DNA of 34,739 nt from Eubacteriaceae bacterium (GCA_012838085.1 DUPX01000063.1:1-34739); one strand, 5' to 3'. Counted from the stretch's first letter, positions 1,940 to 23,695 are shown. The notes: generated by a model from the sequence alone, not told the origin. Numbers and translations are program-made.

Positions 1940-3088
1940 ATGACTATTTACTTTGATAATGGAGCAACAACCTTTCCAAAACCGGAAATAGTATATAGGG
2001 AAATAGAAAAGACCATGAGAAGTTCCTCCAATCCTGGAAGATCAAGTCATAAAATGGCCTTAGAATCGGGCAGGATAATTTATAGAACAAGGGAATTATT
2101 AGCCCAGTTATTTTCCATTAATGATCCAATGAATATTGTATTTACCCAAAATTGTACTGATTCACTCAATTTAGGAATTAAAGGAGTGCTAAAGAAGGGA
2201 GACCATGTAGTAACTACCAGTATGGAACACAATTCAGTAATTCGTCCCTTAAAGACTTTGGAAGAGAGGGGAATAATAGAACTTACAATTGTAGAGGGTG
2301 ATAATAGGGGAATGGTGTCCAGCCTGGATATAGAAAAGGCAATAAAGCCCAATACTAAAATGATTATTACCACCCATAGCTCAAATGTGGTAGGCACCCT
2401 ACTGCCTATATCAGAGATAGGCCAAATTGCTAGAGAGCATAATCTGATTTATATGGTAGATGCTGCCCAAAGTGCAGGCATCTATGATATAGATGTGAAT
2501 AAGTCCAATATAGATTTATTAGCCTTCCCTGGCCATAAGGGATTATTAGGTCCCCAGGGGATAGGAGGACTATACATTAAAAGGGGTATAGAATTAGAAA
2601 CCCAGAGGGAAGGGGGAACAGGAAGCCAGTCAGAAATTTTAAGCCAACCTTTAATAATGCCAGATAGATATGAAAGTGGCACCTTAAATACAATAGGAAT
2701 TGCTGGCCTAGGGGCAGGGGTAAAATTCATTTTAGAAGAGGGAATAGATAATATCCGAAAGCAAGGGGAAAAGCTCACCCAATATCTAATAGAGGGCCTT
2801 TCAAAGATAGATAAGGTAATAATATATGGGCCAAAGGATGGAGAAAGACAGGCCCCTGTGGTGTCTATTAATATTGGAGAAGCTGATCCATCAGAAATCA
2901 GCTTTATTTTAGATAATAATTATGATATAGCCTGTCGCTCAGGACTCCATTGTGCCCCCCTAGCCCATAAGACAATAGGCACCTTTAATCGGGGGACTAT
3001 AAGATTTAGTATGGGATATTTTAACACCATAGAAGAAGGGGATAGGGTAATTCAAGCTATAGAAGAAATCAGCAAATGGGTAGGGTAG
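1940..3088 (+). CDS. Class V aminotransferase / cysteine desulfurase-family protein
   Basis: 382 aa, fold type I PLP enzyme. The N-terminal YFDNGATTFPKP is the class V signature. THSSNVVGT and VDAAQSAG are cofactor-pocket motifs, and Lys200 in PGHKGLLGPQG is the expected Schiff-base lysine. Cys332 and Cys338 in CRSGLHCAP are placed like the sulfur-accepting cysteine of desulfurases. Sequence style fits the EF2568-like (TIGR01977) subfamily, which may release sulfur or selenium from an amino acid. I use ATG 1940 because GGAGG at 1927-1931 sits 8 nt upstream; the in-frame TTG at 1925 overlaps that site. It is first gene of a tight four-gene operon, 12 nt before the next gene. The real substrate is unknown. 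Confidence 0.85.
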   Translation: MTIYFDNGATTFPKPEIVYREIEKTMRSSSNPGRSSHKMALESGRIIYRTRELLAQLFSINDPMNIVFTQNCTDSLNLGIKGVLKKGDHVVTTSMEHNSVIRPLKTLEERGIIELTIVEGDNRGMVSSLDIEKAIKPNTKMIITTHSSNVVGTLLPISEIGQIAREHNLIYMVDAAQSAGIYDIDVNKSNIDLLAFPGHKGLLGPQGIGGLYIKRGIELETQREGGTGSQSEILSQPLIMPDRYESGTLNTIGIAGLGAGVKFILEEGIDNIRKQGEKLTQYLIEGLSKIDKVIIYGPKDGERQAPVVSINIGEADPSEISFILDNNYDIACRSGLHCAPLAHKTIGTFNRGTIRFSMGYFNTIEEGDRVIQAIEEISKWVG

Positions 3089-3100
3089 GGAGAAAATACA

Positions 3101-3670
3101 TTGAAAAAATTTGATAGGGTTTATAAACACTATGATAAATTTATAGAGATGTTTAAATTTAACAAAGGAGAAGAAATAAAAGAAATATTAAACCTCCAAG
3201 GAGAGGAAGTAGTATTAGATATTGGCGGAGGTACAGGAAGACTGGCAGATTATATAAGCAGTGATTGTAAAATTGTCTATATCCTAGATGAAAGCGAGGG
3301 AATGCTTTCAAAGGTGAAGGCCAATGGAAAAGTAGTCCCCATATTAGGAGATGGATTGAATACAGATTTTGAAAACAATAGTATAGATATAGTTTTAATG
3401 GTGGATGTATTTCACCATATCGAAAATCAAAAGGGTCTTATTCAAGAGGCCTATAGAATACTTAAGGATAATGGGAAGTTGCTTATTTTAGATTTAGAAA
3501 AGAAAAATGCTAAGATTAGAATGCTAAGGGTCTTTGAATTTATATTATTTGGAAAATTGTATTTTAAAACCAGTGAGGAAATTCAAGAACTTATTAAGGA
3601 TAAATTTAAGATTAGAAATTTTATTGATAATAAATACTATTTTATTATTATTGGAGAAAAGAATGTTTAA
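3101..3670 (+). CDS. Class I SAM-dependent methyltransferase (first)
   Basis: 189 aa. Motif I is VVLDIGGGTGRLADY near residue 37, followed by an acidic residue in YILDESEGML and by FHHIENQKGLIQEAYRILKD, the usual post-motif region of small Rossmann methyltransferases of the UbiE/type 11 kind. The start is TTG 3101 with GGGAG at 3088-3092 overlapping the previous stop. The 3' end overlaps the next methyltransferase gene by 8 nt, so translation is probably coupled. The methyl acceptor cannot be inferred. Confidence 0.85.
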   Translation: MKKFDRVYKHYDKFIEMFKFNKGEEIKEILNLQGEEVVLDIGGGTGRLADYISSDCKIVYILDESEGMLSKVKANGKVVPILGDGLNTDFENNSIDIVLMVDVFHHIENQKGLIQEAYRILKDNGKLLILDLEKKNAKIRMLRVFEFILFGKLYFKTSEEIQELIKDKFKIRNFIDNKYYFIIIGEKNV

Positions 3671-4529
3671 GAAAATAAGGTTTTATATGAAATTAGCCAT
3701 AAAACTTTTAAATAAAAATGTTGTAAATAAAGAGGATTATAAAGAAGAATACAATAAGGTGTCCTCTACTTATACCCATTGGCTAGATAAGATGGGTCAA
3801 TTTACCGATAGGATAATAGATGAGGATATACATATAAATAGGAAGGTAAAAATACTAGACTTTTCTTGTGGAACAGGCTATATCACTAAAAAGCTTCTAG
3901 AAAAGGATATATATGGGGAAATGGAAATAATATCCGTAGATTACTCAGATAAGATGTTAGAAGAATTGAGAAGATTAGAGGATAATAGAATAACAATAGT
4001 TAATAGTGAGGGTATTGAGTTTTTAAGATCTACCGATGAAAGGTTTGATATGATATATTTTGGATGGGCCTTATCTTATTTTAACTATAGAGAATTATTT
4101 GAACTTTTTAAAAAGGTATTAAATCCTAAGGGAAGAGTAAAAATCATCACTAATGTTCAGGGCACCCTCTCTGGGATAGAAGATATATTTTTAAAGGTAA
4201 TGTATAAAAATCAAGGTCAGGTCATAAAGCCTATGGATATAAAATTCAATCTACCCAATGGGCAGGAAGGACTAACAAAATGGTTTAACCAATTTGGTTT
4301 TCAAGAGCTAAATGTAGAAGAAGAGGAATTAGTAGTTAGCTTTGATAAACCAGAAGAACTTCTAGACTGGCTAAGTGAAACAGGCGCAATAGCGGGAACA
4401 GCATGTATCTTTAAGGATTACCATTTAATAAAGGAAGATATAATTGAAGAAATTAGAAGAACAAAATATAAGAGGGGAAAATATCAAATAAATCATAAAT
4501 TTGCATATGGAACTTATAGACTGGAATAA
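3663..4529 (+). CDS. Class I SAM-dependent methyltransferase (second)
   Basis: 288 aa. Residues 65-72 LDFSCGTG form motif I, followed by IISVDYSDKMLEEL and then FDMIYFGWALSYF at the motif IV position. About 60 residues precede the Rossmann core and a large C-terminal half may bind substrate. The frame is open far upstream, but GGAG at 3653-3656, 6 nt before ATG 3663, sets the start inside the last codons of the preceding gene. It is not close in sequence to the first methyltransferase, so the two probably act on different positions or substrates. Function unknown. Confidence 0.85.
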   Translation: MFKKIRFYMKLAIKLLNKNVVNKEDYKEEYNKVSSTYTHWLDKMGQFTDRIIDEDIHINRKVKILDFSCGTGYITKKLLEKDIYGEMEIISVDYSDKMLEELRRLEDNRITIVNSEGIEFLRSTDERFDMIYFGWALSYFNYRELFELFKKVLNPKGRVKIITNVQGTLSGIEDIFLKVMYKNQGQVIKPMDIKFNLPNGQEGLTKWFNQFGFQELNVEEEELVVSFDKPEELLDWLSETGAIAGTACIFKDYHLIKEDIIEEIRRTKYKRGKYQINHKFAYGTYRLE

Positions 4530-4543
4530 CTCAAGGGGGAATC

Positions 4544-5824
4544 ATGGTGGGGGTAAATAATTATAAGATGTTAACAAAGATGTCATTTGATAGGAAGGTT
4601 ATTAAATCATTATTTGAAATATATAATATTCTTAAGGAAGATAAGAACTTTAATATAAATAAATATATAAAAATGATGTCCAGTATGTTAAAGGGAGAAA
4701 AATTAATAGAATTTGAAGATAAATACATTATTAGTGCCTTTTTACCACCCTTTCCTTCTAAGGCATTTTATACAAATTTAATGGCAGTCCCAGAATCAAA
4801 TAATATATTTACCCAGCAAATATATGGAAAGAGGAGTGGGCCTATTTCCTTTTATCTTTCACTTACTAATAAATGCCCTAATAATTGTTTATATTGTAGC
4901 ACAAAAAATCGAGTAGATGATAGGGAATTAACCACCCGAGAGTGGATAGATATTATTAGTAATATTCAAGATATGAATACCTCCATTATAGGCCTAACCG
5001 GCGGGGAGCCTATGGTGAGGGAAGATATATACCAAATAGTAGAGTCAATAGATGATAGAAGTGTATCCACCCTATTTACCAGTGGATTTAATTTAACATT
5101 GGAAAGAGCAAAGGAATTAAAGAAAAGGGGCTTATTTAGCATTGGAATAAGTTTGGATTCCTATGATAGAAAAAGACATAATGCCAATAGAAATAGTGAG
5201 CAGGCCTTTGACTATGCCATTAGGGCTATTCAAAACTCAAGGTCTGCAGGAATCTATACTATGGCACAGACAGTTATTTTAAAAGAGGAATTGGATGAGG
5301 AAAAACTCCTTAATTTTTTTAAATTCGCCGGTGAAATTGGGGTCCATGAAGTTAAGATCTTAGAACCAATTTTAAGTGGTAGCCTTTTAGGTGTAGAGGA
5401 TTTGGATAAGGTACTCTTTAGTATTGAAGATAGGAAGAAACTCATTAATATACAGCACAAGGCCAATAGAAAAGGGGGACTTCCGAAAATTACCACCTTC
5501 GCCTATACAGAAAGTAAGGAAAGATATGGCTGTGGTGCCGGCACCCAACATTCATATATAAGTGCATCTGGCCATCTATATCCCTGTGATTTTGTACCTA
5601 TGAGCTTTGGAAGTATTGGAGAAAAGGGGATAGAGGAACTATGGAAAGAAATGAATGAAATAATGGGTAAACCCAAAATAGGTTGCTTCGCCCAGAGGGT
5701 AAATAAAGAAGTTTATAAGAAGGCAAATAAAGAATTACCCTTAGTAAAAGAAGAATCCATAAAGATTTGTGAAAACAATATGACAAATGAATTTCCCCAA
5801 TATTATAAAGAATTACAGAAATAA
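4544..5824 (+). CDS. Radical SAM protein with atypical SPASM-like C-terminus
   Basis: 426 aa. Cys111, Cys115 and Cys118 in NKCPNNCLYCS form the CxxxCxxC site for the 4Fe-4S/SAM cluster, and GGEP at 153-156 binds SAM. The C-terminal part begins like a SPASM domain: Cys330, then SGHLYPC with Cys348 (CX13GX4C), then LWKEM. Only Cys381 and Cys409 follow, fewer than the full seven-Cys pattern, so any auxiliary cluster is incomplete or unusual. A helical region of about 100 residues precedes the core. AAGGGGG lies 4 nt before ATG. Last gene of the operon, 14 nt after the second methyltransferase. SPASM enzymes often modify peptides or small molecules; no precursor peptide gene is visible nearby. 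Confidence 0.85.
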   Translation: MVGVNNYKMLTKMSFDRKVIKSLFEIYNILKEDKNFNINKYIKMMSSMLKGEKLIEFEDKYIISAFLPPFPSKAFYTNLMAVPESNNIFTQQIYGKRSGPISFYLSLTNKCPNNCLYCSTKNRVDDRELTTREWIDIISNIQDMNTSIIGLTGGEPMVREDIYQIVESIDDRSVSTLFTSGFNLTLERAKELKKRGLFSIGISLDSYDRKRHNANRNSEQAFDYAIRAIQNSRSAGIYTMAQTVILKEELDEEKLLNFFKFAGEIGVHEVKILEPILSGSLLGVEDLDKVLFSIEDRKKLINIQHKANRKGGLPKITTFAYTESKERYGCGAGTQHSYISASGHLYPCDFVPMSFGSIGEKGIEELWKEMNEIMGKPKIGCFAQRVNKEVYKKANKELPLVKEESIKICENNMTNEFPQYYKELQK

Positions 5825-6184: not shown

Positions 6185-6523
6185 TTAATTATTACCAATA
6201 TCTTTCCCATATTCTATCATAGCTTCCACTACATGAATTATTCTTTCCTGCTCTTTAGGATATAGGTTTTTTATTTTTTCTGAAAGTATGGAGGATTTTA
6301 TTTCACTGCCGGTATTTAAAACATCCATCAAAAGAAAATCTGATGTTATATTTAATGCATTTGCAATACGGATAAATGTTTCCAGTCTGGGGATTTTTAC
6401 TCCCCGCTCAATAGCACTAATATAATTAGGGCTCAAATTTACATGCTCTGCCAATTCTTCCTGTTTCATTCCCAAGACTTCTCTTCTCATTTGGATTCTT
6501 TTACCGATAGATTTTAAATTCAA
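6185..6523 (-). CDS. XRE-family transcriptional regulator
   Basis: 112 aa. Residues of roughly 3-60 form a Cro/CI-type helix-turn-helix: GKRIQMRREVLGMKQEELAE, then LSPNYISAIERGVKIPRLET and ANALNITSDFLL. A short helical tail follows. The frame is open to a TTG at 6538, but GGAGG lies inside that extension, 8 nt before a second TTG at 6523, so I start there. It stands alone, with no obvious target beside it. The helical tail may mediate dimerisation; no metabolite-binding domain is visible. Confidence 0.85.
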   Translation of the reverse strand: MNLKSIGKRIQMRREVLGMKQEELAEHVNLSPNYISAIERGVKIPRLETFIRIANALNITSDFLLMDVLNTGSEIKSSILSEKIKNLYPKEQERIIHVVEAMIEYGKDIGNN

Positions 6524-6692
6524 TGTGCCAACCTCCAATAGAGTTGCTTTGATACATTTAGTATAAATATTATATTTAGTTGATTACAGTATCTATTGGT
6601 AGAAGACTAATCCTATTGGAGTTGGTATTGTAAAGATTTAATATTTTTATGGATTGTTCGCTAATAAATTATTATAATATAAATATATAAAC

Positions 6693-6943: not shown

Positions 6944-7279
6944 ATGAAAAAATTAGCTGTAATATTATTAATTATTTTAATTTTACTTACTGGCTGTTCT
7001 GGTAAAGTAACCATGAAAAATGTTTCTAAACAACCTAATTTCCGAGGAATAGTTACTGAAGTAAATGAACATTCTATTTTAGTGAAGGTCAACGAAGATG
7101 AGGATGAAATCCGCAGCAGCGATTTAATGAATGTATCCTTATCTATGGAGATTGAGGATAGCCTAAGGGAATTTAATGTAGGGGATAAGGTTCGGGTTTA
7201 TTATGATGGAAAGATTGCCGAAAGTTATCCTGCTCAAATTAATAAAGTATATACAATTATATTAGAGAACCCTTCTTAG
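6944..7279 (+). CDS. Small lipoprotein, DUF3221-like
   Basis: 111 aa. A Leu/Ile-rich signal peptide ends in the lipobox LLTGC, predicting a membrane-anchored extracytoplasmic protein. The mature part is one small beta-barrel-like domain: FRGIVTEVNEHSILVKV, an acidic stretch, then FNVGDKVRVYYDG and SYPAQINKVYTI. This layout matches DUF3221 proteins, whose function is unknown. AGGGGG precedes the ATG. The stop codon overlaps that of the convergent marR gene, inside a shared hairpin. Confidence 0.8.
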   Translation: MKKLAVILLIILILLTGCSGKVTMKNVSKQPNFRGIVTEVNEHSILVKVNEDEDEIRSSDLMNVSLSMEIEDSLREFNVGDKVRVYYDGKIAESYPAQINKVYTIILENPS

Positions 7280-7290
7280 GAAGGGTTCTC
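7265..7290. terminator. Hairpin shared by two convergent genes
   Basis: GAGAACCCTT (7265-7274) pairs with AAGGGTTCTC (7281-7290) around a 6-nt loop that holds both stop codons: TAG of the lipoprotein and TAA of marR. There is little T-run on either side, so termination may be modest. The stem codes for the last residues of both proteins. Confidence 0.6.
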
Positions 7291-7761
7291 AATCCTATTT
7301 TGCTTGCTTTTTAAACTATTTATAAAATTAGTAACCTCTGGCATTAACTCATTTGTCATATGGTCTAAAATGCTAATTAATGTATCTATATCTTCTTTTG
7401 GAGTAGATTTTTCCAATCTATCTAGCACCGTATCTATATATTGAGTTCTAATATAATAGTATTTATAAAACTTTTCGGTAGGTTTTAAATAATATTCCCT
7501 CTTATCTTCCTTAGATTGAATCTTTTTTATATAGCCTTTACTAATTAAATTGGCCACCCTATATGCCATATTAGATTGGGAAGTTTCCATAAATTCTGTC
7601 AGCTCTTTTATGGTAGGCATTTCCAGTGCATTTATTACCTCTACACAGAGTATTTCTGTGGGGGTTAAATTAGCTTCTCTTTCTTCAAAGCCTTTAAATA
7701 TACTTTTATAAAAGTTTAATTTAAATTTTTCATAAACATCCTTAAATAATTCTTCTAACAT
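7276..7761 (-). CDS. MarR-family regulator, probable fatty-acid synthesis repressor
   Basis: 161 aa. The winged helix spans about residues 33-95: LTPTEILCVEVI, then IKELTEFMETSQSNMAYRVANL, and a wing at KKIQSKEDKREYYLKPT. Helices at both ends would form the dimer interface. It is the last gene of the fab operon, 62 nt after fabZ, and matches the role of FabT/FabR-type MarR repressors in Firmicutes. By inference it binds the inverted repeat downstream of the acpP promoter and so controls its own operon. The ligand, probably acyl-ACP in such systems, cannot be seen here. Confidence 0.8.
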   Translation of the reverse strand: MLEELFKDVYEKFKLNFYKSIFKGFEEREANLTPTEILCVEVINALEMPTIKELTEFMETSQSNMAYRVANLISKGYIKKIQSKEDKREYYLKPTEKFYKYYYIRTQYIDTVLDRLEKSTPKEDIDTLISILDHMTNELMPEVTNFINSLKSKQNRIENPS

Positions 7762-7823
7762 AGCCCACCCTCACCATTTTTATTTCATAATATCAAATGG
7801 AATAATCAAATTCAAGCTGGATA

Positions 7824-8249
7824 TTATTTTATGGCAAAAGTAAGCTCTGCTGTACAGCATATTTCACCATCCACTTTTGCAATAGCTGAACCAAATCCTA
7901 TATTGCCTAATTGTCTCTTTAATTTACATTCTAAATAAAGTTGATCCCCAGGGAGGACTTCTTTTTTAAATTTGGCAGATTTTATTCCAGCAAAGAAGGC
8001 AATTTTACCCCTGTTTTCCTCTAATGACAAAAGGGCAATAGCACCTACTTGGGCTAAAGCTTCAATTATTAGCACCCCAGGCATTACATGATATTCTGGA
8101 AAATGACCTTGAAAAAAGTATTCATTTCTTGTGATATTTTTAATTCCTGCTGCCCAATTGCCTTCTTCTCCATCTATTATCTTATCTACTAATAAAAATG
8201 GATATCTATGGGGCAATATTTTCTCTATTTCATTAGAATTCAACTTCAT
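7824..8249 (-). CDS. fabZ: 3-hydroxyacyl-ACP dehydratase FabZ
   Basis: 141 aa, the normal length for FabZ. It dehydrates 3-hydroxyacyl-ACP to trans-2-enoyl-ACP in the cytosol. The hot-dog fold motifs [13 protein letters not shown] and [20 protein letters not shown] carry the catalytic His and Glu. The open frame extends 18 codons further upstream, but GGGAGG just before ATG 8249 fixes the start, almost touching the fabF stop. A decayed copy of this gene's 3' end lies near 16110-16235. Confidence 0.92.
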
Positions 8250-8250
8250 T

Positions 8251-9492
8251 TTATTCCTCCCATCTCTTAAATAATAGGGATACATTATGGCCCCCAAAAC
8301 CAAGGGAATTACTTAAGGCATAGTTTATTCTGCCCTCTATATATTTATTTTCCACTATATTTAAATCACATTCTGGATCATTAACCTTATAATTTATATT
8401 TGGAGGAATTATATTATTTTTAATGGCCAGTAGAGTAATCAAAGCCTCTATAGCCCCGCTTGCACCTAAGAGATGGCCCGTCATGGATTTAGTAGAACTC
8501 ACATAAATATCCTTATATCCTTCACCAAAAACCCTTTTTATTGCTAAGGTTTCATATTTATCATTAAGGGGAGTAGATGTGCCATGGGCATTTATATAGT
8601 CCACCTGAGATTTATCAATGTTCCCTTCTAAAATAGCATTTGCCATTGCCAGAGCTGCATATATTCCCTCACTATTGGGCTGGGTGATATGGCCTGCATC
8701 ACAGGTAGAACCATAGCCAATTATTTCACCATAGATTTTAGCATTTCTTTTCTTTGCATGATTAAGTTCCTCCAATACTAATACACCTGCCCCTTCTCCC
8801 ATAACAAAGCCGGACCTTTCCTTATCAAAGGGGATACTGGCCCTTTCCTTATTAGCTTGTTTTGATAGGGCTTTCATAGAGGAAAAGCCTCCTATCCCCA
8901 ATGGGGTAATGCTGGCTTCTGCCCCTCCAGCTAAAATAATATCGCTATAACCATCTTTAATACTCCGGAAGCCTTCACCAATAGCAGAATTTGACCCTGC
9001 ACAGGCGGTCACTGGACAGATACAAAAACCATGAAACCCAAAATAACTAGCCAGATGGGAGGCAGTAAGATTTACAATAGACATGGGAATAAAGAAGGGG
9101 GATATTCTTTCATAACCTTTATCCATCCCCTTTTCCTTTTCTCTTTCGATGGTTTCTAATCCTCCGATTCCTGAGGAAATATAAACCCCTGCCCTGTTCT
9201 TATCTATATCATCTAGGTTTATATTGCTGTCCTCTATAGACTTTATACCTGCTATTAATCCTAGAATATTTACCCTATCCATCCTATTAATGGATTTTCT
9301 ATCTAAGTATTCTAAAGGATCAAGATCTTTAACCTGGCCAGCTAGCTTTATTTGAAAGTCTTCAATATTAAAACTTTCTATTATATCAATTCCACATTTA
9401 GAGGTTTTAAGGCTTTCTAATATATCTTCTAAAGTATTGCCTATAGGGGATATGCCCCCTAATCCTGTTATCACTACCCGTCTTTTTGTCAT
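8251..9492 (-). CDS. fabF: Beta-ketoacyl-ACP synthase II FabF
   Basis: 413 aa, full length. It condenses malonyl-ACP with the growing acyl-ACP. The thiolase-fold catalytic triad is present: Cys164 in [14 protein letters not shown], the first His in [11 protein letters not shown] and the second in [13 protein letters not shown]. The product [13 protein letters not shown] is the usual KAS II N-terminus. Its ATG overlaps the fabG stop by one base (TAATG), so the two are translationally coupled. Confidence 0.95.
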
Positions 9493-10232
9493 TATATATT
9501 CATACCTCCATCAATGGATATAACCTGGCCTGTAATATAACTGGCCTCATCAGATACTAGAAAGTTTACCAAATGCCCTATATCTTCAGCCTTTCCAAAG
9601 TATTTTACAGGTATCTCTTCTAGCAATTTTTCTCTAACCTTATCATTTAATTTATTAGTCATATCAGTTTCTATAAACCCGGGAGCAATGGCATTGACCC
9701 GAATATTTCTACTTGCCAATTCCTTAGCTAGGGATTTAGTCATTCCAATTATTCCTGCCTTACTGGCGGAATAATTTGCTTGACCTGGGTTACCTCTAAT
9801 TCCTACTATACTTGAAATATTAATTATCCTACCATATCTATTCTTTGCCATAATTCTAGCTGCTAATTTCATGGTGTAAAAGGCAGAAAATAAATTGACT
9901 TCTATTACCTCTCTAAAGTTTTTTTCCTTCATGGAGATTAACAACCCATCCCTAGTGATTCCTGCATTATTTACTAAAATATCTATCTTACCAAATTGGT
10001 CTATAGATTCTCTAAAAACAGAGTCAACATCTTCCTCCTTACTCATATCCCCTTGAAGTATTATGGATTTAATGCCATATACACTACATTGTTTTTGTGT
10101 CTCCTCTGCTCCTTTTAAGTCATTATTATAATTTATTATAATATCAATATTTGATTGGGCTAATCTAATGGCTATAGCCCTTCCTATACCTTTTGATGCC
10201 CCAGTAATTAGTGCCACCCTTCTCTTTACCAT
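9492..10232 (-). CDS. fabG: 3-oxoacyl-ACP reductase FabG
   Basis: 246 aa short-chain dehydrogenase that reduces 3-oxoacyl-ACP with NADPH. The cofactor motif is TGASKGIGRAIA, followed by NNAGITRDGLL, the catalytic Ser in ISSIVGIRG, and YSASKAG holding the Tyr and Lys. The C-terminus has the FabG-typical SYITGQVISIDGGM. AAGGAGGT precedes the ATG by about 9 nt, within the end of the fabD frame, which overlaps this gene by 68 nt. Confidence 0.95.
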   Translation of the reverse strand: MVKRRVALITGASKGIGRAIAIRLAQSNIDIIINYNNDLKGAEETQKQCSVYGIKSIILQGDMSKEEDVDSVFRESIDQFGKIDILVNNAGITRDGLLISMKEKNFREVIEVNLFSAFYTMKLAARIMAKNRYGRIINISSIVGIRGNPGQANYSASKAGIIGMTKSLAKELASRNIRVNAIAPGFIETDMTNKLNDKVREKLLEEIPVKYFGKAEDIGHLVNFLVSDEASYITGQVISIDGGMNI

Positions 10233-11153
10233 CTAAGGCCACCTCCTTTACCAACTTCTTAATGGATTCCACATTATTTATAGATAAAACTCTTTCATCC
10301 TTAGCCATTCTCTTCACTAGCCCTTTAATGGTGTTTTTATGGCCAATTTCTATTATTAAGTCCACATCTTGGGCCAACAACCTTTCCAAACAATTCTTAA
10401 ATAAAACTGGGTTGGACACCTGTTTTGCCATAATATCCTTTATATCTCCATCACTATCAAAGTCACCCTTTAGATTGTATATTATTGGGATTTTGGGGGT
10501 CCTAAATTCCATATATTAAAAAACTTCTTTAGTTTAACCGAAACATCTCCCATATAGGAAGTATGAAAAGGTCCACTTGTGTTTAACTCCTTCACCTTAA
10601 AGCCATCATTTTTTAAATGTTTATTTACCTTATTAACTAAATCCTTATCACCTGAAATTACAATTTGACCTTTGGTGTTAATATTAGACACCTGGACAAA
10701 GTCAGTTTTATTAGAATAACTTTTACATATATTCTTTATTCCTACAAGGTCATCACTAAATACTGCTAACATTTTTGAATCTAATCTCTTGGAAACTTGA
10801 GCCATTTCCCTACTTCTATACTCAATCACCTTAAGTAATTCATCTTCATTTAAAACTCCAGAAGCATATAAGGCGGAGTATTCCCCTAAACTAAGGCCTA
10901 AAACTATGTCTGGCTTAATTCCATAGGATGCTAAAACCTTAGTTATGGCTATTTGGAAAACTAACATTAGAGGTTGAGTATATTCTGTTTGAGAGATGGT
11001 TTTTAAATCACCTTGAAAGGAGAGTTTTTTTAATGGAAAGTCTGCCTCTAAGGATTTATAATAATCTCTTATAAAGGGATATTCAGCATATAAATCCTGA
11101 CCCATCCCCTCCACTTGACTGCCTTGTCCTCCATATATATAAGCTATTTTCAT
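10165..11153 (-). pseudogene. fabD: Malonyl-CoA:ACP transacylase FabD, split by a frameshift
   Basis: FabD moves malonyl from CoA to ACP. The first frame (11153-10482) carries YGGQGSQVEGMG, Ser88 in GLSLGEYSAL and His197 in GPFHTSYM. It then runs off near 10517 into a non-homologous tail ending GPPKSQ. The second frame (from 10512) continues with FRTPKIPIIYNLKGDF, NPVLFKNCLERLL and EIGHKNTIKGL. Adding one A after TTTTTT near 10521 would join them as KKFFKYMEFRTPKIP. The second ATG has no clear ribosome site. The C-terminus runs 68 nt into fabG, longer than FabD usually is. Both active-site residues are intact, so this may be a recent lesion or a sequence error. Confidence 0.85.
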
Positions 11154-12208
11154 TTTTCACTATACTCCTTGATTATTTCTTTGATTATACTTTTTACAGT
11201 GACTATTTCTGTTATTTTATCTAATTTTGAACCTGCAAAAATTAAGCCATTATCTATATTTCCTTTTACTGAATTGATAAGAGCATCTGATATGCAAAAT
11301 GGGGTATTTTTCGGATCGCATGTTCGCAAACAATTGATACATCTATTTGATGGTATTCTTGATTTTTTTATTTTTTCTAATAAATTATTTCTTATTATTC
11401 TACCTGGCAACCCTGCAGGACTATCTATTATGGTTAAATCTTTTTCTTTTGAAGCAATAATAAATTCTTTGTATTTTATATCTGCATCACATTCATAAGT
11501 ACCTATAAATCTAGTACCTATTTGTATTCCTGTGGCTCCTAATTCTCTATATTTTTTCAAATCATATCCATCATAGACTGATCCTGCTACAAATAAGGGG
11601 ATATCTTTTCCCTCTTGGTTTTTTATAGCCTTCAAGTATTTTAAAATCTCTCTAGTCAATTTTTCTAGGCTTTTGCCCTTTTCTATTTCTTCCTTTTTAA
11701 AACCTAGGTGGCCTCCAGCCCCACTGCCTTCTAATACCACAAAGTCAGGAAGTCTATTATATTTTTTAAGCCAAACCTTATTAATTAGTTTTAAGGCTTT
11801 TAAACTGGATACTATTGGGGATATTAATATCTCCTCATCTTCTACAAGTTTAGGAAGGTTCAAAGGAAGGCCTGCACCGGATATTATATAGTCAACTTTT
11901 TCTTTGACTGCTTCTTTAACCAATTCCTCATATTGATTGGCAGCAACCATTATATTTACTCCGATTAAGCCTTTGCCCTTAGCAATTTTTCTGCCTAATG
12001 CAAATTCTGTTTTAAATCCCCGGATATTGGCTTCTAGAGCATTAGTATAAAAATCATCTTCCCTATACCCGATATTTACCATTGATATGGTTCCCATGGC
12101 ACCTTCCCTAGCTACTGCTCCGCTAAGTATGCCTAAAGAGATACCTACTCCCATTCCACCTTGAATTATGGGATATTCAGCGGTCTTATTCTTAATATTT
12201 AATTTCAT
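11150..12208 (-). CDS. NMO/FabK-like flavoprotein with four-Cys motif
   Basis: 352 aa TIM-barrel flavoprotein of the nitronate monooxygenase/FabK superfamily. YPIIQGGMGVGIS and GSGAGGHLG (about 162-169) are the usual flavin-site segments, with AGSVYDGYDL and GATGIQIGTRF near the phosphate site. It differs from FabK by a C-terminal cluster, Cys290, Cys293, Cys297 and Cys305, in CINCLRTCDPKNTPFC, which could hold an Fe-S cluster or metal. It overlaps the fabK 3' end by 17 nt and shares ATGA with fabD. The reaction is unknown: a second enoyl-ACP reductase or an accessory oxidoreductase are both possible. Similar proteins occur in other clostridia, from memory. Confidence 0.8.
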   Translation of the reverse strand: MKLNIKNKTAEYPIIQGGMGVGISLGILSGAVAREGAMGTISMVNIGYREDDFYTNALEANIRGFKTEFALGRKIAKGKGLIGVNIMVAANQYEELVKEAVKEKVDYIISGAGLPLNLPKLVEDEEILISPIVSSLKALKLINKVWLKKYNRLPDFVVLEGSGAGGHLGFKKEEIEKGKSLEKLTREILKYLKAIKNQEGKDIPLFVAGSVYDGYDLKKYRELGATGIQIGTRFIGTYECDADIKYKEFIIASKEKDLTIIDSPAGLPGRIIRNNLLEKIKKSRIPSNRCINCLRTCDPKNTPFCISDALINSVKGNIDNGLIFAGSKLDKITEIVTVKSIIKEIIKEYSEK

Positions 12209-13130
12209 TATAAATTTTCCCCAATTCTTCTTGATATTCCTCCATTAGGTTTTCTAGGATTTCTTCCACAGGCCTTATTTCCTCAATTTGACTTAATGTT
12301 AATCCAGCCATAAATGAGCCCTTTTCTAAATCCCCTGATTCCACTGCTGCCTTTAGGGCACCTAGTGTGTATTTTTCCAATTCCATTTTGTCCAATCCCT
12401 GTTTTTCCAATCTTAAATAATTTACTGCCATATTATTTTTTATTAATCTTAAGGGAAGACCATTTATTCTCCCAATTACCGTTACATTATTATATTTAGA
12501 CTTTAACAAAAGATTTTTGTATTCTTGATGGATAGGACATTCTACTGATGATAAAAACAATGTACCTATTTGAACTCCTATAGCTCCTAATATTTTAGCT
12601 GCTAAAATCTGCTTACCTGAAGCTATTCCCCCTGCAGCTATTATGGGGATGTTAACTCTATCTGCTGTTTGGGGAATTATGGTCATAGAAGTCATTTCAC
12701 CTATATGTCCCCCTGCTTCACAGCCCTCTACAATAACTCCATCTGCTCCACTTCTTTCCATCTTTACTGCCAATGTTGGGTTAGGCACTACGGGAAATAC
12801 CTTTATCCCTGCAACTTGCCATTTTTCAATATATTTACTGGGATTTCCTGCCCCTGTAGTGACAACAGGCACCCTTTCTTCTACAATTATTTCTGCTAAT
12901 TCATCTACATAATAATTTAATAGCATTAGATTTACACCAAAGGGTTTTTTAGTGAGAGATTTACATATATTAATTTCCTGTCTTAATTGGGCCCCAGTCA
13001 TATTACCAGATCCTATCACTCCCAATGCACCAGCTTCTGACACCTTGGCTGCGAATTTTCCATCAGCTATATGGGCCATGCCCCCTTGAATAATGGGATA
13101 TTTTATTCCTAAGATTTTTTCTAGATTCAT
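12192..13130 (-). CDS. fabK: Enoyl-ACP reductase II FabK
   Basis: 312 aa FMN enzyme that completes each elongation cycle by reducing enoyl-ACP. It shows YPIIQGGMAHIADG, KPFGVNLML, VEGCEAGGHIG and AAGGIASGKQ, then GAIGVQIGTLFLSS, all typical of FabK. The frame is open to an ATG at 13145, but AGGTG lies just before ATG 13130, so that start is preferred. It lies directly after fabH, the usual place for fabK in clostridia. No FabI is seen in this window. Confidence 0.9.
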   Translation of the reverse strand: MNLEKILGIKYPIIQGGMAHIADGKFAAKVSEAGALGVIGSGNMTGAQLRQEINICKSLTKKPFGVNLMLLNYYVDELAEIIVEERVPVVTTGAGNPSKYIEKWQVAGIKVFPVVPNPTLAVKMERSGADGVIVEGCEAGGHIGEMTSMTIIPQTADRVNIPIIAAGGIASGKQILAAKILGAIGVQIGTLFLSSVECPIHQEYKNLLLKSKYNNVTVIGRINGLPLRLIKNNMAVNYLRLEKQGLDKMELEKYTLGALKAAVESGDLEKGSFMAGLTLSQIEEIRPVEEILENLMEEYQEELGKIYNEIKY

Positions 13131-13138
13131 TTTTACAC

Positions 13139-14053
13139 CTACCATTCTAAATATGCTAAAGCCCAGGTCAATCCTGCACCAAAGGCGAAGAATAGTATTT
13201 TATCTCCATGCTTTAATCTACTCTCTCTATTAATTTCATCTAACAGTATAGGAATACTGGCTGAAGAAGTATTTCCCACCCTTTCTATATTGGATGGAAA
13301 TTTATCCATAGATATATTTAGGTTTTTTGCCAAAGTTTCTAAAATCCTTATATTGGCCTGATGGGATATGAAATAATTTATATCTTCTTTCTTTATATTG
13401 TTTATTTTTAGAAAGTTATCAATGGATTTACCTATGGTAGTTACAGCAAACTTATAAACTTCCCTACCTTCCATATGTAAGCCTTTAGTAGGATGGTCAT
13501 AGCTTAAAACCCTTTTATTCCTCTTAGTTCCAGAGCTGAATATACTATTTTTTTTAGAATATTCTAATAGGACTGCCCCTGCTCCATCACCAAAAAGTAC
13601 TGCCGTATTTCTATCAGAAAAGTCTAATATTTGGGAAAGGACTTCTGCACCTATTAGCAAGGCACATTCTCCTTCCTTAATTATACCCTCTACCAGCTTA
13701 AGACCTGCTACAAATCCGCTGCAGCCCATATTGATATCTAATGAGTAAGTCTCTTTACTAAAGCCAAATCTCTCCTGTACTTGACTGGCTAAATTAGGGA
13801 TAGCAAAAGATGTTGTACAGGTTACAACTACTATTGTTTTGACTCTTCTGATTTCCTCCTGGGAAAGGTTTAAATTCACTATTGTTTTTTCAATTAGATC
13901 AAATATTCCACTGTCCTCTACAAAATGTCTTTGTTTTATACCTGTTCTTGAACTTATCCAATCATCGGATGTATCCAAAAAGGTTTCAAAATAAAAATTA
14001 TCCACAACTTTTTTCGGCAGATAACTTGCGGTTTTTTTTATCCTAATACCCAT
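13139..14053 (-). CDS. fabH: Beta-ketoacyl-ACP synthase III FabH
   Basis: 304 aa, slightly short for FabH. It starts fatty acid synthesis by joining acyl-CoA to malonyl-ACP. Catalytic residues are Cys111 in DINMGCSGF, His231 in ISHQANIRI and Asn261 in VGNTSSAS. Near the N-terminus DDWISSRTGIKQRHF is the CoA/acyl-site segment. The ATG follows the acpP stop with no gap (TAAATG). The 3' end is close to fabK. The primer preference, straight or branched, cannot be read from this. Confidence 0.93.
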   Translation of the reverse strand: MGIRIKKTASYLPKKVVDNFYFETFLDTSDDWISSRTGIKQRHFVEDSGIFDLIEKTIVNLNLSQEEIRRVKTIVVVTCTTSFAIPNLASQVQERFGFSKETYSLDINMGCSGFVAGLKLVEGIIKEGECALLIGAEVLSQILDFSDRNTAVLFGDGAGAVLLEYSKKNSIFSSGTKRNKRVLSYDHPTKGLHMEGREVYKFAVTTIGKSIDNFLKINNIKKEDINYFISHQANIRILETLAKNLNISMDKFPSNIERVGNTSSASIPILLDEINRESRLKHGDKILFFAFGAGLTWALAYLEW

Positions 14054-17174: not shown

Positions 17175-17678
17175 ATGGAAGAAATTTTATCTTTAATAGA
17201 TAAATATCAGGTCTGGGTTATTTTTGCAATAATATTTTTTTCGCTATTATTATTAATTTTTATTATTATTCAAGGGGTTATCATCGGTAGGTGGAAGAAG
17301 AAATACTATAGTCTTATGGGGGACAAAGATTATAATTCGCTAGAGGAAATGCTAAGTGGACATAATGCCCAGGTTGGAAAGATTTTAGAAAATGTTGAAG
17401 AGATTTTAGAAAAACAAAAATATGTAGGGGATAAACTAGAACATTGTGTCCAAAGAGTAGGGATTACCCGATATAATGCCTTTAATGATATGGGCAGTGA
17501 CCTAAGTTATTCTGTGGCCTTATTAGATGGAAAGAATAACGGGGTAGTGATGAGTGGCATTTTTGGTAGGGACTTTTGTAATACTTATGCTAAACCTATA
17601 GAAAATGGAGAATCTACTTATATGCTTTCTGCAGAGGAAATATTAGCCTTAGATAGGGCAAAAAGGTCAAATGGCTAA
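17175..17678 (+). CDS. DUF4446 family membrane-anchored protein
   Basis: 167 aa. One N-terminal membrane span (residues about 14-38) is followed by a short helical linker with NVEEILEKQKYV. The C-terminal soluble domain has QRVGITRYNAFNDMGSDLSY, SVALLDGKNNGVV and TYAKPIENGESTYMLSAEE, which is the DUF4446 signature. The function is unknown; family members often sit near ParB/chromosome or cell-envelope genes. AAGGAGATG is the ribosome site. It is followed after 17 nt by the lipid kinase, with which it may be co-transcribed. Confidence 0.85.
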   Translation: MEEILSLIDKYQVWVIFAIIFFSLLLLIFIIIQGVIIGRWKKKYYSLMGDKDYNSLEEMLSGHNAQVGKILENVEEILEKQKYVGDKLEHCVQRVGITRYNAFNDMGSDLSYSVALLDGKNNGVVMSGIFGRDFCNTYAKPIENGESTYMLSAEEILALDRAKRSNG

Positions 17679-17695
17679 TTAGGGGGATAGGCAAA

Positions 17696-18607
17696 ATGGG
17701 AATATATTTTATAGTTAATCCGATAGCTGGAAAGGGGCAAACTGCTAGACTTGCCCAGGAATTTGAAAGGATTTTGCAGGAGAGAGGTATTAAATATAAA
17801 ATTGTATTTACCGAATATCCTGGACATGCTGCTAAATTAGCCGCAGAAATAGATGATAAGGAATTTTCCAAGGTGGTTTCTGTAGGAGGGGATGGGACAT
17901 TAAATGAAATACTCAATGGACTAAATATTGAAAAGTTTAGTCTGGGTATAATCCCAGCTGGTACAGGAAATGACCTAATAAAATCTGTAGATATTCCTAG
18001 TAATGTGATGGTGGCCTTTGAGGTAGTATTAAGTGGAGAAAAAAGGTCTATAGATATAGGCTATATTCAAAATAAAAGATTTATAAATGTGGCTGGCTTT
18101 GGCTTTGATGTGGAAGTATTAAGGGAAACTGAAAAACTTAAAAAGATTGTTAAGGGAAAAGTTGCCTATGTTTTAGGGGTGATAAAAGCCATAATCAGCT
18201 TTAAACCTGTAAAATTACATATTTCAATAGATGGGATAGAGTATAAACGGGAGGCTATGGTTTGCGCTATAGGAAATGGTCAATACTTTGGTGGTGGAAT
18301 GAAGATATTACCTAAGGCCGAATTAGATGATGGACTTTATGATATATGTATTATTAAAAAGCTTCCTAAACCAGTTTTGTTATATCACTTCCCTAAGGTT
18401 TTTAAGGGTACCCACCTAGAAATTCCTTGGGTGGAATATCTAAAGGGGAAAAATGTAAAGATACTTACCCAAGAACCAGTATTAGTAAATTTTGATGGAG
18501 AGGTTAGCCAACAGGAAGTCCCAGATTTTAATATTATTAAAAATGGGTTAAATATTTTAGTACCAAAAAAATCTGGTACTACTTTAGTCATAGAAAGGCA
18601 ATTTTAA
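17696..18607 (+). CDS. YegS/DagK-type lipid kinase
   Basis: 303 aa, typical length. FIVNPIAGKGQ opens the fold, VSVGGDGTLNEILNGL holds the GGDGT nucleotide loop, and IPAGTGNDLIKSV is the second nucleotide motif. Later NVAGFGFDVEVL and GGGMKILPKAELDDGLYDI complete the pattern of the diacylglycerol/sphingosine-like kinases (YegS/BmrU). It likely phosphorylates diacylglycerol or a related lipid at the membrane. The exact lipid is not determinable. AGGGGG sits before the ATG. Confidence 0.88.
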   Translation: MGIYFIVNPIAGKGQTARLAQEFERILQERGIKYKIVFTEYPGHAAKLAAEIDDKEFSKVVSVGGDGTLNEILNGLNIEKFSLGIIPAGTGNDLIKSVDIPSNVMVAFEVVLSGEKRSIDIGYIQNKRFINVAGFGFDVEVLRETEKLKKIVKGKVAYVLGVIKAIISFKPVKLHISIDGIEYKREAMVCAIGNGQYFGGGMKILPKAELDDGLYDICIIKKLPKPVLLYHFPKVFKGTHLEIPWVEYLKGKNVKILTQEPVLVNFDGEVSQQEVPDFNIIKNGLNILVPKKSGTTLVIERQF

Positions 18608-18668
18608 AACCTAGGGATGAATAAATAAAAGACTATTGCCCATAATAAGGCCAACGGAGGTGTTGGCT

Positions 18669-18953
18669 GTGATTATAGCAATAGATGAAAATTTACATCA
18701 TATTAAAACAGGATTACAACAATTAGGCTATAGTGTTGTGGATTTAAAGGAAAATCAATTGACAGATGTTATTATTTATTATAGAGATAGCCAAAGCAAT
18801 ATTTTTGAAGGGAATTTACATAATTCCTTTCTAAGTGGTCTTGGTGCAGAATCCGGGACTCTCCTTATAAATGGTTATGGTAAAACCCTTGAGGAAATTC
18901 AGGAGATTATAAAAAATAGAAGTTATTCACCTTTATTTACTAATCTTGAATAA
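18669..18953 (+). CDS. YkuS-like (UPF0180) small protein
   Basis: 94 aa. The N-terminal half, IAIDENLHHIKTGLQQLGYSVVDL, matches the opening of UPF0180/YkuS proteins, and the middle reads like the D-SNI/G motif (YRDSQSNIFEG). GGAGG at 18656-18660 lies 8 nt before GTG 18669; an upstream TTG (18636) and a GTG in the ribosome site are less likely starts. It lies 61 nt after the lipid kinase, likely the same transcript. Role unknown. Confidence 0.7.
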   Translation: MIIAIDENLHHIKTGLQQLGYSVVDLKENQLTDVIIYYRDSQSNIFEGNLHNSFLSGLGAESGTLLINGYGKTLEEIQEIIKNRSYSPLFTNLE

Positions 18954-19145
18954 TCCACCATGATATTCTATAAAATTTTGGCAGAAAATTAAACATAATC
19001 AAAAAATTAACAAAATAATTAAAGGATTAGGTTAGTTTATGTAGAATTTATATAAATAAGAAAGTCATTAAGTATATTGATGATATCTTAGATATAGATT
19101 TCACTGGCAAAGATAATATTAATAGAAAAGCAAGGGGGTAATAGG

Positions 19146-19694
19146 GTGAAAAGATCATTATACTTTCTATTCTTTTTGATTCTTGTTACATCATTGATAG
19201 TAGGCTGCAGTACCCAGAAAGTAACCAGTAAAATGTACTATATAGAGGAAAATGGAAAAAAGGATTATTTAGATGAAGAAAATAAAGATGTGGTAGAATT
19301 ATTAGCATTGATAGAGGCCTATGAGAAGGTAGAGAATGATTATGATTATAGGACGGTAGATAAGACGGCTAGATATCCCTATGTGACGGAAAGGTATAAA
19401 AACTTTAAGGAAACAGGTAGATGGGAAGAGGATATTAAGTGTGGAAAGATTTGCATGAAGTGGTGCAACTTTGAAATGAATTATATTAAATTTGATGAAT
19501 CCCTTCAAGAGGCAGAGGCGGACTATCTTACCTGCTTTACAGTGAAAGAATGTGGATGTTTAGAAGAGAGGGGATTTGAGGATGGAGCCACCTATCAAGC
19601 TCCCATAACCCTTCAAGCAAAAAAAGAAGATGGAAAGTGGAAGGTGGATGATTACACCTTTACTTCAAAAAATGCCAAAAAAATAAAAAATTAA
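19146..19694 (+). CDS. Cys-rich lipoprotein of unknown function
   Basis: 182 aa. A signal peptide ends at the lipobox IVGC. The mature part starts with Tyr/Glu-rich repeats of charge. It then holds six clustered cysteines besides the lipidated one: KCGKICMKWCNF and, about 25 residues on, TCFTVKECGCLEE. The end QAKKEDGKWKVDDYTF is like the closing strands of small NTF2-like or DUF lipoproteins. It starts with GTG after AAGGGGG. The clustered cysteines could bind metal or form disulfides. Family not recognised. Confidence 0.75.
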   Translation: MKRSLYFLFFLILVTSLIVGCSTQKVTSKMYYIEENGKKDYLDEENKDVVELLALIEAYEKVENDYDYRTVDKTARYPYVTERYKNFKETGRWEEDIKCGKICMKWCNFEMNYIKFDESLQEAEADYLTCFTVKECGCLEERGFEDGATYQAPITLQAKKEDGKWKVDDYTFTSKNAKKIKN

Positions 19695-19728
19695 GGGATG
19701 GATTCCACTATCCCTCTATTTTCTTAAT

Positions 19729-19770
19729 AATAAAAGTTCATCTCTCATATATGAGAGATGAACTTTTATT
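19729..19770. terminator. Perfect 42-nt palindrome, bidirectional terminator
   Basis: Bases 19729-19770 are fully self-complementary: AATAAAAGTTCATCTCTCAT at one end mirrors ATGAGAGATGAACTTTTATT at the other. It lies between the convergent lipoprotein and yyaC genes, and a smaller AGGGAT/ATCCCT hairpin precedes it. T-rich flanks occur on both strands. Confidence 0.85.
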
Positions 19771-20384
19771 TACCCCTCTAAGTAGCTAATTGCAATATCC
19801 TCTGGTTTTAAATTGGCACTAATTATTTGAAAATGCTTGTGGAGACCAGCAGCTATAATATCAGCTAAATTCATTACCAGGCTTAAACGAGTATTTTGTA
19901 ATATCCTATGCTCCATAAACCCCCCCACATTCACAATACCTTTGATATACATATCCCCCACCCAGGGCAAAGGCTTATTAACACCTGCCCCGGGTTTTAA
20001 AGGACCTGGCCCCAGGTTAATATATCCTATATTATTAAATTTTCCTAAGCAGGCATCTAATGCAATAATAAAAGGATTGGATATTTCTTCTTCAATCCTT
20101 TTTATATTATTTTCCAAATTCTTTGCATGGATAGGATCATCTAAGGTTCCCAGTATATGTATTTTATTATTATATGGGTTATTGTATAATTTATGTCCTA
20201 CTAATGGCCCTAAACAATCACCAGTAGATCTATCGGTACCTATACATAGAAGGACAATATTTTCTGATTTTTCTGTTATAGTATTATAAAAGCAGTCATT
20301 AAAACTATAAATAAATTTTGAAATAGCCCTTTGGTCTTTACTATCTATACTATAAATCCTGTCTTGGCTTAAGAATTCTTCCAT
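19770..20384 (-). CDS. yyaC: Spore protease YyaC family protein
   Basis: 204 aa. The core IVLLCIGTDRSTGDCLGPLVG, then HILGTLDDPIHAKNL, IIALDACLG and GPLKPGAGVNKPLPWVGDM is the conserved YyaC pattern, related to the germination protease GPR fold. B. subtilis YyaC is expressed in sporulation. This supports a spore-forming host. ATG 20384 is preferred over TTG 20390 because GGAGGAGG lies 6 nt upstream of the ATG. Its stop lies in the palindrome. Confidence 0.88.
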   Translation of the reverse strand: MEEFLSQDRIYSIDSKDQRAISKFIYSFNDCFYNTITEKSENIVLLCIGTDRSTGDCLGPLVGHKLYNNPYNNKIHILGTLDDPIHAKNLENNIKRIEEEISNPFIIALDACLGKFNNIGYINLGPGPLKPGAGVNKPLPWVGDMYIKGIVNVGGFMEHRILQNTRLSLVMNLADIIAAGLHKHFQIISANLKPEDIAISYLEG

Positions 20385-20501
20385 TGACAACCTCCTCCCT
20401 TAAACAGTATTTCCCTATTGAACAAATTTATTTATCAAAGAAAGGGAAAAAATGATACAATAAGGGAAAACCTTAAGTAAAAGCAAGGAGGGTATAATAC
20501 T

Positions 20502-21110
20502 ATGGAAACAATAGATTGCAGAGGTTTAAGCTGTCCCTTGCCAGTAGTGAAAACAAAAAAGGTGTTGGAGGACTTAAAAGAGGGCAGTATTGTTACTATT
20601 GTGGATAATCAGATGGCTAGGGAAAATATAAAAAGTCTTGCAAATAAATTAAATACCACCTATGAAGTGGAGGAAAAGGCGGGGGATTTTTATATAACCA
20701 TTACAAAAAAGCAAGAACCTCCTGAAGAAGATAAAGGCATAGACCAATCACCTAATAAGAATCCAGGGGTAGAGGATAATCTTGTAATACTAATAGGAAA
20801 TGATAAAATGGGTGTAGGAGAAGAGGAATTGGGAAATATTCTTATAAAGGGCTACCTATATGCCCTTACCGAAGTGGAACCTAGACCTAATAAACTTATC
20901 TTTGTAAATAATGGTGTAAAGCTAAATTGTAAAGGATCAGACTCTATAGAAAGCATACAAAGATTAGAGGATTTAGGAGTAGAGATCCTAACCTGTGGGA
21001 CCTGTTTGGATTATTATGACTTAAAGAAAGACTTACAGGTGGGAAGTATATCCAATATGTATACCATTGTAGAGGCATTAAACCAGGCAACAAATACTAT
21101 AGTGTTATAG
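20502..21110 (+). CDS. yedF: YedF-type sulfurtransferase-like protein (selenium metabolism)
   Basis: 202 aa. The N-terminal 70 residues are a TusA/SirA fold: DCRGLSCPLPVVKTKKVLED, with Cys in CPLP. The C-terminal half is DsrE-like and ends with VEILTCGTCLDYYDL, the cysteine motif of the selenium-associated YedF family (TIGR03527). Such proteins are thought to deliver sulfur or selenium. AAGGAGGG precedes ATG. It is followed by the DUF3343 gene after 21 nt and then mscS. No selD is in this window. Confidence 0.88.
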   Translation: METIDCRGLSCPLPVVKTKKVLEDLKEGSIVTIVDNQMARENIKSLANKLNTTYEVEEKAGDFYITITKKQEPPEEDKGIDQSPNKNPGVEDNLVILIGNDKMGVGEEELGNILIKGYLYALTEVEPRPNKLIFVNNGVKLNCKGSDSIESIQRLEDLGVEILTCGTCLDYYDLKKDLQVGSISNMYTIVEALNQATNTIVL

Positions 21111-21131
21111 AAATAGACAGAACAGAAAGGT

Positions 21132-21422
21132 ATGGCTATGGAGGAAAACTACTACCTAATCGCATTTAAATCCACCCATCATGGGATAGCTTTAGAAAAG
21201 ATATTACAGGAGGCAGGCAAGAGTTCTAGGATGATTCCCACCCCGAGGGAGATTTCTAATAGCTGTGGACTATCCCTTCGCTTTAATAGGGAAGATTTAG
21301 CATTTGTATTAGAAAAAATCCATACTAATAATATCTCTATTTATGGAATATATAGTGTAAATATCACCTATGGGAAGAAAAAAATTCAGTCAATAGCTAA
21401 GGGGGAAACTGATAATGTTTAA
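21132..21422 (+). CDS. DUF3343 protein
   Basis: 96 aa. YLIAFKSTHHGIALEKILQE, then RMIPTPREISNSCGLSLRF, matches DUF3343, a family with a conserved Cys suggested to carry sulfur or selenium in partnership with YedF and class V desulfurases. The ATG overlaps a GGAGG, and a second ATG two codons later is possible. Its 3' end overlaps mscS by 8 nt. The class V partner in this genome may be the 1940-3088 gene, 18 kb away. Confidence 0.85.
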   Translation: MAMEENYYLIAFKSTHHGIALEKILQEAGKSSRMIPTPREISNSCGLSLRFNREDLAFVLEKIHTNNISIYGIYSVNITYGKKKIQSIAKGETDNV

Positions 21423-22257: not shown

Positions 22258-22275
22258 GATATTGGAGGTAGAGAA

Positions 22276-22473
22276 ATGGTAGAAGATTATTATTTGGGAG
22301 ATATTATTCAAACAAAAAAGGTTCATCCCTGCGGCTCTAATCAATGGGAGATTATTAGGGTGGGGATGGATTTTAAGATGAAGTGTCAGGGCTGTGGCAG
22401 AGTAGTTATGTTGCCTAGGCCAAAGTTTCAAAAAAGTGTTAAGAAGCTTATTTCTCGAAAGGGTGAAAGTTAA
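22276..22473 (+). CDS. DUF951 protein
   Basis: 65 aa. The protein has KKVHPCGSNQWEIIRVGMDF, then KCQGCGRVVMLPRPKF, which is the full DUF951 (YyzM-like) pattern with three Cys in a zinc-ribbon-like layout. This gene is a regular neighbour of mscS and rpsF in Firmicutes. GGAGGT lies 10 nt before the ATG. Function unknown. Confidence 0.85.
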   Translation: MVEDYYLGDIIQTKKVHPCGSNQWEIIRVGMDFKMKCQGCGRVVMLPRPKFQKSVKKLISRKGES

Positions 22474-22534
22474 AAAGTATTTAAAAACAGCCTATATCTA
22501 TTAAATATAGAAATATGCCAAGATATTTTTATTT

Positions 22535-22615
22535 TAGAGGACTTCTCTATTTTATCTAATACTTATTAAACAGGTATTTTTCAGAAATAAGTAAGGAAAA
22601 ATAGGGAAGTCCTTC
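22535..22615. terminator. Long interrupted hairpin between convergent genes
   Basis: GGACTTCTCTATTTT (22539-22553) pairs with AAAATAGGGAAGTCC (22598-22612) with one G-U pair. Inside, TACTTATT pairs with AATAAGTA. It forms an extended 75-nt hairpin between DUF951 (+) and the hydratase gene (-). It may end transcription in both directions, though the large loop is unusual. Confidence 0.5.
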
Positions 22616-22667
22616 AATATTTAATTCTGGGTTTTGAATTTATGGAAATTATTATGAAAAATGATAA

Positions 22668-23459: not shown

Positions 23460-23619
23460 ATTATTCCTCCTCCATTTAATAATCCTAAAAAATAAGACAA
23501 GTATTATATTTTGTTGCTTTGATTATATGACCAATTATATAATAAATCAAGAAAACAAAATATACAGTAGTAAAGGGTATAAAAAATTATTAAAATTTAT
23601 ATCTTTTACAATAATAGTA

Positions 23620-23667: not shown

Positions 23668-23695
23668 CGTTAGTCCAGATGGGAGGTGAAGAGCT

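Follow-up and report, generated by a model that had tools for sequence, protein, structure and literature searches.

Four closely spaced genes in the genome of a Eubacteriaceae bacterium, encoding a class V PLP enzyme, two SAM-dependent methyltransferases (MT1 and MT2) and a radical SAM enzyme (rSAM), raise the question of whether they form a single pathway and, if so, what that pathway makes. An earlier note, made from the sequence, took them to be one operon whose PLP enzyme could supply sulfur or selenium from an amino acid to a methylated, radically modified product. In the window, by which we mean the whole 34,739-nt stretch of DNA analysed here, the four ORFs and their gaps of 12, −8 and 14 nt, all on the + strand, were recovered exactly as that note gave them, and Pfam and NCBIfam matches bear out its assignment of the families (Table 1). 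Promoter-like sites are no more frequent among the four genes than in shuffled sequences, and the + strand shows no terminator-like site between any of them. The gaps and the lack of a + strand terminator both agree with the claim of a single transcript, which is plausible, the transcript itself being what we infer from them.

Table 1. Positions of the main features in the window
Feature	Coordinates	Strand	Description
Class V PLP enzyme (P0001)	1940..3088	+	382 aa; TIGR01977 cysteine desulfurase/Sec lyase family
MT1	3101..3670	+	TTG start; 189 aa; class I SAM-dependent methyltransferase, UbiE-like core; accessory cassette member
MT2	3663..4529	+	288 aa; BioC-like class I SAM-dependent methyltransferase; core cassette member
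Radical SAM enzyme (rSAM, P0004)	4544..5824	+	426 aa; twitch-like C-terminus; core cassette member
rSAM N-terminal family motif FLPPFPSKAF	4739..4768	+	residues 66-75
YedF + DUF3343-like protein	20502..21422	+	TIGR03527 (YedF); likely to function together with the PLP enzyme

Searching one genome per GTDB species returned 20 close orthologues of rSAM at 40-78% identity, and whole-genome searches added two extra cassette sites. The close orthologues are found in Clostridium, Lutispora, Alkaliphilus, Anoxynatronum, Fusibacter, Petrocella, Maledivibacter and Oceanirhabdus, as well as in a Tissierellales MAG, other Firmicutes MAGs, two spirochaete MAGs and a Patescibacteria MAG. Linkage was counted over the 21 sites with visible upstream DNA (the window and 20 others); the count leaves out L035 and L049, whose rSAM gene stands at the edge of its contig. 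MT2 directly precedes the rSAM gene at all 21 sites, with gaps of −20 to +79 nt. Ahead of MT2, an intact MT1 is present at 16 sites, mostly overlapping MT2 by 4-11 nt; the gene is absent from four and broken at one, in Fusibacter sp. 3D3, whose copy (L042:4657-5128) carries an internal deletion with a change of frame. Relocation of MT1 was ruled out by searches of the genomes lacking it at the site, which returned generic methyltransferases only (50-78 bits versus 285-298 for true orthologues). Since these genomes hold no clear MT1 orthologue elsewhere, MT2 and rSAM are the core of the cassette and MT1 is a dispensable accessory. MT2 was not found elsewhere in the genomes of Alkaliphilus pronyensis and the Spirochaetales MAG of L049, where the rSAM gene sits at a contig edge.

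Across the 16 sites compared, pairwise distances of the three cassette proteins correlate with r of 0.96-0.98, values of a kind that shared ancestry inflates, and the three genes travel together, diverging in step. A divergent trio also occurs at L116 (28/27/36% identity). The genes flanking the cassette mostly differ between sites, and the full trio is rare in the class sample (3 of 391 genomes). Thus conserved co-occurrence, the check put forward in the earlier note, holds for MT1-MT2-rSAM, whose genes recur in this order, overlapping or nearly so, amid otherwise unrelated genes, and fails for the PLP gene, which among the visible sites adjoins the cassette in the window only. Taken together, MT1-MT2-rSAM is a compact unit of patchy distribution whose genes are passed on jointly in scattered anaerobic bacteria, and we found no papers describing it.

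Several other readings of the cassette were tried and rejected. Carriage by phages or plasmids was ruled out, as there is no viral relative, MT2 has no plasmid match and two plasmids carry only distant relatives of rSAM; a defence system was ruled out because PADLOC matches are generic only; and riboswitch or other RNA control was ruled out because no Rfam family adjoins the cassette in the window or at the 20 loci. Within 700 bp on either side of the cassette, small ORFs recur among close relatives only, which dismisses a conserved small peptide. No peptidase or transporter is conserved next to the cassette across the sites, and the absence of an adjoining precursor peptide, transporter or known pathway gene noted earlier was confirmed.

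Against TIGR01977, the model for cysteine desulfurases of the EF2568 type, the PLP enzyme itself scores 511 bits, above the cut-off of 377, and against the selenocysteine lyase SclA model 386 bits, below the cut-off of 525; it carries the motifs HKG and LHC, at residues 199 and 336. Its closest orthologues (72% identity) belong to two sister genera, G001 and G002, in which they lie directly upstream of a block running DUF4446-type, YkuS-like, YyaC-like, YedF, DUF3343 and mechanosensitive channel, several of these names being our assumption from reading the sequences. In G002 a YegS-like kinase accompanies the DUF4446-type protein, and rpsF-ssb-rpsR follow the channel. The rSAM gene is absent from both sister genomes, whose best matches are weak. 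The same block is present in the window at 17175-24671, separated from the PLP gene by about 14 kb that hold the cassette and a fatty-acid-synthesis cluster. At the PLP/MT1 junction G+C falls from 38.8% (PLP) to 28.2% (MT1), which agrees with the cassette having come to lie behind the PLP gene. The simplest reading is that the PLP gene is a housekeeping cysteine desulfurase/Sec lyase gene, an older neighbour behind which the cassette now sits, perhaps co-transcribed with it yet outside the conserved unit. Since it adjoins the cassette at no other visible site and its orthologues keep housekeeping neighbours in sister genomes without the cassette, the idea that its sulfur or selenium enters the product is left unsupported. 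Lin et al. (2015, PMC5322559) describe an association of Sec lyase family genes with YedF and DUF3343. The YedF of the window scores 227 bits against TIGR03527 (cut-off 110), and together with the DUF3343-like protein it is a likely functional partner of the PLP enzyme; a selD frame containing an in-frame TGA lies elsewhere in the genome (G000:C115:46925-47848), and with these three proteins it suggests that this organism uses selenium.

Downstream of the cassette, the − strand encodes a small helix-turn-helix regulator similar to phage RstR-type repressors (6185-6538; 65.6 bits, cut-off 80). The adjoining fatty-acid-synthesis cluster (7276-14053, − strand) comprises what we take to be a FabT-like regulator, FabZ, FabF, FabG, a FabD-like protein, two FabK-like proteins and FabH; G001 has no close match to this FabH, and in G002 the identity is only 41%.

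rSAM matches the Pfam Radical_SAM domain (PF04055, 1.8e-25) and, in part, SPASM (4e-6), and the Pfam scan of its sequence gave no domain beyond these two regions and no PqqD/RRE match. It carries the hallmarks of the radical SAM superfamily, CX3CX2C and GGE(P): all 21 sequences keep the cluster motif cysteines C111, C115 and C118 and residues G153-G154, and E155 is almost as constant. At the C-terminus, CX12GX4C (C330-G343-C348) is followed only by C381 and C409, consistent with the earlier observation of the start of a SPASM motif with just four C-terminal cysteines; C330, C348 and C381 are invariant in the 21 sequences and C409 is kept in 20. The seven-Cys SPASM motif reads CX9-15GX4C-gap-CX2CX5CX3C-gap-C (PMC6231123), and rSAM is not a full SPASM protein, as it has no CX2CX5CX3C block. 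SkfB and BtrN have been described as having a twitch domain (PMC6231123), for which we took as diagnostic a cysteine before and one after the β-hairpin and one after helix α2′, binding one auxiliary cluster. Judged by sequence, C330, C348, C381 and C409 occupy twitch-like positions, so that the C-terminus resembles a twitch rather than a full SPASM domain, and the missing SPASM cysteines would be absent because the domain is of this type.

No NCBIfam model reaches its cut-off with rSAM; the best are NirJ2 (130 bits, cut-off 500) and AhbD (116, cut-off 500), followed by PqqE (92, cut-off 381) and archaeal MoaA (91, cut-off 325). In a tree, some of whose long branches are of unsure place, the enzyme falls within a 42-row clade with support of 100/96, and an LPPFPSKAF-like N-terminal pattern is found in 40 of the 42 clade rows versus none of 21 other radical SAM rows. 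rSAM thus belongs to an unnamed, well-supported family. The AlphaFold2 model (pLDDT 90.9, pTM 0.92) has SkfB as its best PDB match.

MT1 matches Methyltransf_11 in Pfam (4.8e-20) and reaches no NCBIfam cut-off, scoring 48.6 and 47.9 bits against UbiE/MenG models with cut-offs of 216 and 158. The best HMM for MT2 is BioC, at 66.5 bits against a cut-off of 185. Its AlphaFold2 model (pLDDT 88.7) has BioC and JHAMT (juvenile hormone acid methyltransferase) among the nearest folds, the BioC match having a TM of about 0.56 by query, a level generic for class I methyltransferases; MT2 also has a helical N-terminus and a C-terminal region of its own. BioC and JHAMT methylate carboxyl groups of acyl-type substrates, and the fold is common to all class I methyltransferases.

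The surroundings of more distant rSAM relatives, in which neighbours without a family match presumably are what their sequences suggest, give a further view of the family. At L064 and L066 the gene is adjoined by a BioF/serine palmitoyltransferase-like enzyme, a FabF-like ketosynthase, an SDR, a lipid-kinase-like protein and a ThiL-like protein, with an ACP at L064; the cluster resembles an unassigned sphingolipid-like or polyketide pathway. Elsewhere the relatives stand beside KAS III (L067 and Haliovirga L113), an NRPS-like gene (L065), or an HpnA-like SDR and a methyltransferase (L118). At L060-L063 and L119-L122 a four-gene set is repeated, in which a family rSAM is joined by a GMC-type oxidoreductase and a pair of small ORFs, one of them membrane-like. 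Such surroundings of the rSAM relatives suggest chemistry on small molecules, in many cases with substrates of acyl type. Genes resembling acyltransferases and reductases also lie near a divergent homologue of MT2 (about 30%). As a separate observation, two relatives (L058:9282-10586 and L059:8755-10062) have lost CX3CX2C and have the same adjoining genes in both genomes; the aligned L058 protein keeps the first C-terminal Cys pair. These two are likely pseudo-rSAM proteins.

The computation shows a conserved unit whose proteins diverge together, an MT1 that can be dispensed with, the family motif and the arrangement of cysteines; from there we infer an order of steps, a substrate class and a product. 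We tentatively favor, as a possibility well short of probable, that MT1-MT2-rSAM works on its own as a tailoring unit, methylating a small molecule of acyl- or lipid-like kind from general metabolism and modifying it by radical chemistry. Genes for a scaffold enzyme, a carrier protein or a transporter are absent from the cassette; its substrate would be supplied by general metabolism without a scaffold gene, and the product would have no dedicated exporter gene. MT2 would probably carry out an O- or carboxyl-methylation of the small acyl- or lipid-like substrate. rSAM would then cleave SAM by means of its CX3CX2C cluster, and the 5′-deoxyadenosyl radical would abstract a hydrogen from the substrate, while an auxiliary Fe-S cluster in the twitch domain may accept an electron or bind substrate; the product would thereby become oxidised, cyclised or rearranged. 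MT1 may add an optional second methylation, and its absence or breakage at five of the 21 sites means that the product need not be doubly methylated. The PLP enzyme upstream would be a Se/S-delivery housekeeping gene, the cassette having come to lie behind it. The MT2-rSAM linkage, the coupled divergence, the MT2 fold near BioC/JHAMT and the acyl-type surroundings of distant rSAMs argue for this tailoring unit with moderate to low confidence; against it, with no scaffold, carrier or transporter gene in the cassette, the proposed substrate class is drawn only from distant relatives whose clusters differ from one another, and the fold similarity of MT2 to BioC is generic. More speculatively, we envision the cassette as a minimal, horizontally spread pathway for an undescribed radical modification of a common membrane lipid or acyl metabolite, carried out by an unnamed rSAM/twitch family whose other branches would serve acyl-carrier-dependent clusters.

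The resemblance of the three proteins to UbiE/MenG, BioC and NirJ2/AhbD could instead point to a cofactor or quinone module altering a tetrapyrrole, a quinone or a biotin/lipoate-type precursor; this is unlikely, as the scores are all far under curated cut-offs, no pathway genes adjoin, and the patchy distribution is unlike that of a core cofactor. RiPP maturation, in which an SkfB-like rSAM acts on a precursor peptide encoded elsewhere and the methyltransferases decorate it, draws on the RiPP maturases SkfB and, by fold, SuiB being the best matches of rSAM in sequence and fold. It is more doubtful again: the sequence matches span only the rSAM/twitch part (residues 98-366) and not an N-terminal peptide-binding domain, for which Pfam gives no match in rSAM, small ORFs within 700 bp recur among close relatives only, and no conserved peptidase or transporter accompanies the cassette.

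A true four-gene pathway in this lineage, with PLP-released sulfur or selenium built into a product that is then methylated, is very improbable. The 12-nt spacing on one strand, the lack of a + strand terminator between the genes and the YedF and SelD frames would suit it, but the PLP gene's single occurrence beside the cassette among the visible sites, the context of its orthologues in G001 and G002, on which we reject the link, and the G+C step at the junction do not. Least credible of all is a stress or defence role, with a viperin-like rSAM and ArsM-like methyltransferases modifying nucleotides or arsenic: a PADLOC viperin match of 57 bits is weak, viperin similarity is confined to the rSAM core, and the equally weak ArsM-model matches of MT1 and MT2 (25-33 bits) face cut-offs of 240 or more. 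Viperins are not known to carry a twitch extension, and the twitch-like extension of rSAM argues against this assignment.

What emerges is a conserved radical SAM family, as yet unnamed, whose methyltransferase partners are fixed; the analysis also illustrates how a true cassette can be told from a chance operon neighbour by conserved linkage. Carriers such as Clostridium senegalense, C. sulfidigenes, Maledivibacter halophilus and Oceanirhabdus are culturable, which brings a possible new reaction and metabolite within experimental reach.

Among known systems, the sporulation killing factor maturase SkfB, a radical SAM/twitch enzyme, shares with rSAM the core and a C-terminus of twitch-like pattern, with cysteines before and after the β-hairpin and another that follows at 33 residues in P0004 (C348 to C381) versus 34 in SkfB (C351 to C385). 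Unlike SkfB, rSAM has no recognised peptide-binding domain, CXC pair or precursor peptide, and the two are 20% identical in the fold alignment. The rSAM/SPASM enzymes NirJ2/AhbD and the PqqE family are its best NCBIfam neighbours, but rSAM differs from them in its scores (92-130 bits against cut-offs of 381-500), its gene partners and its lack of the full seven-Cys SPASM motif. For MT2, the malonyl-ACP O-methyltransferase BioC is the best match by both HMM and fold; unlike BioC, MT2 lies far under the curated cut-off, has no adjoining biotin genes, and adds its helical N-terminus and a conserved C-terminal NHKF segment. The PLP gene is accounted for by the Sec lyase family-YedF-DUF3343 selenium set (PMC5322559), since both sister genera share the gene block and the genome carries selD; this set is unrelated to the methyltransferase-rSAM cassette.
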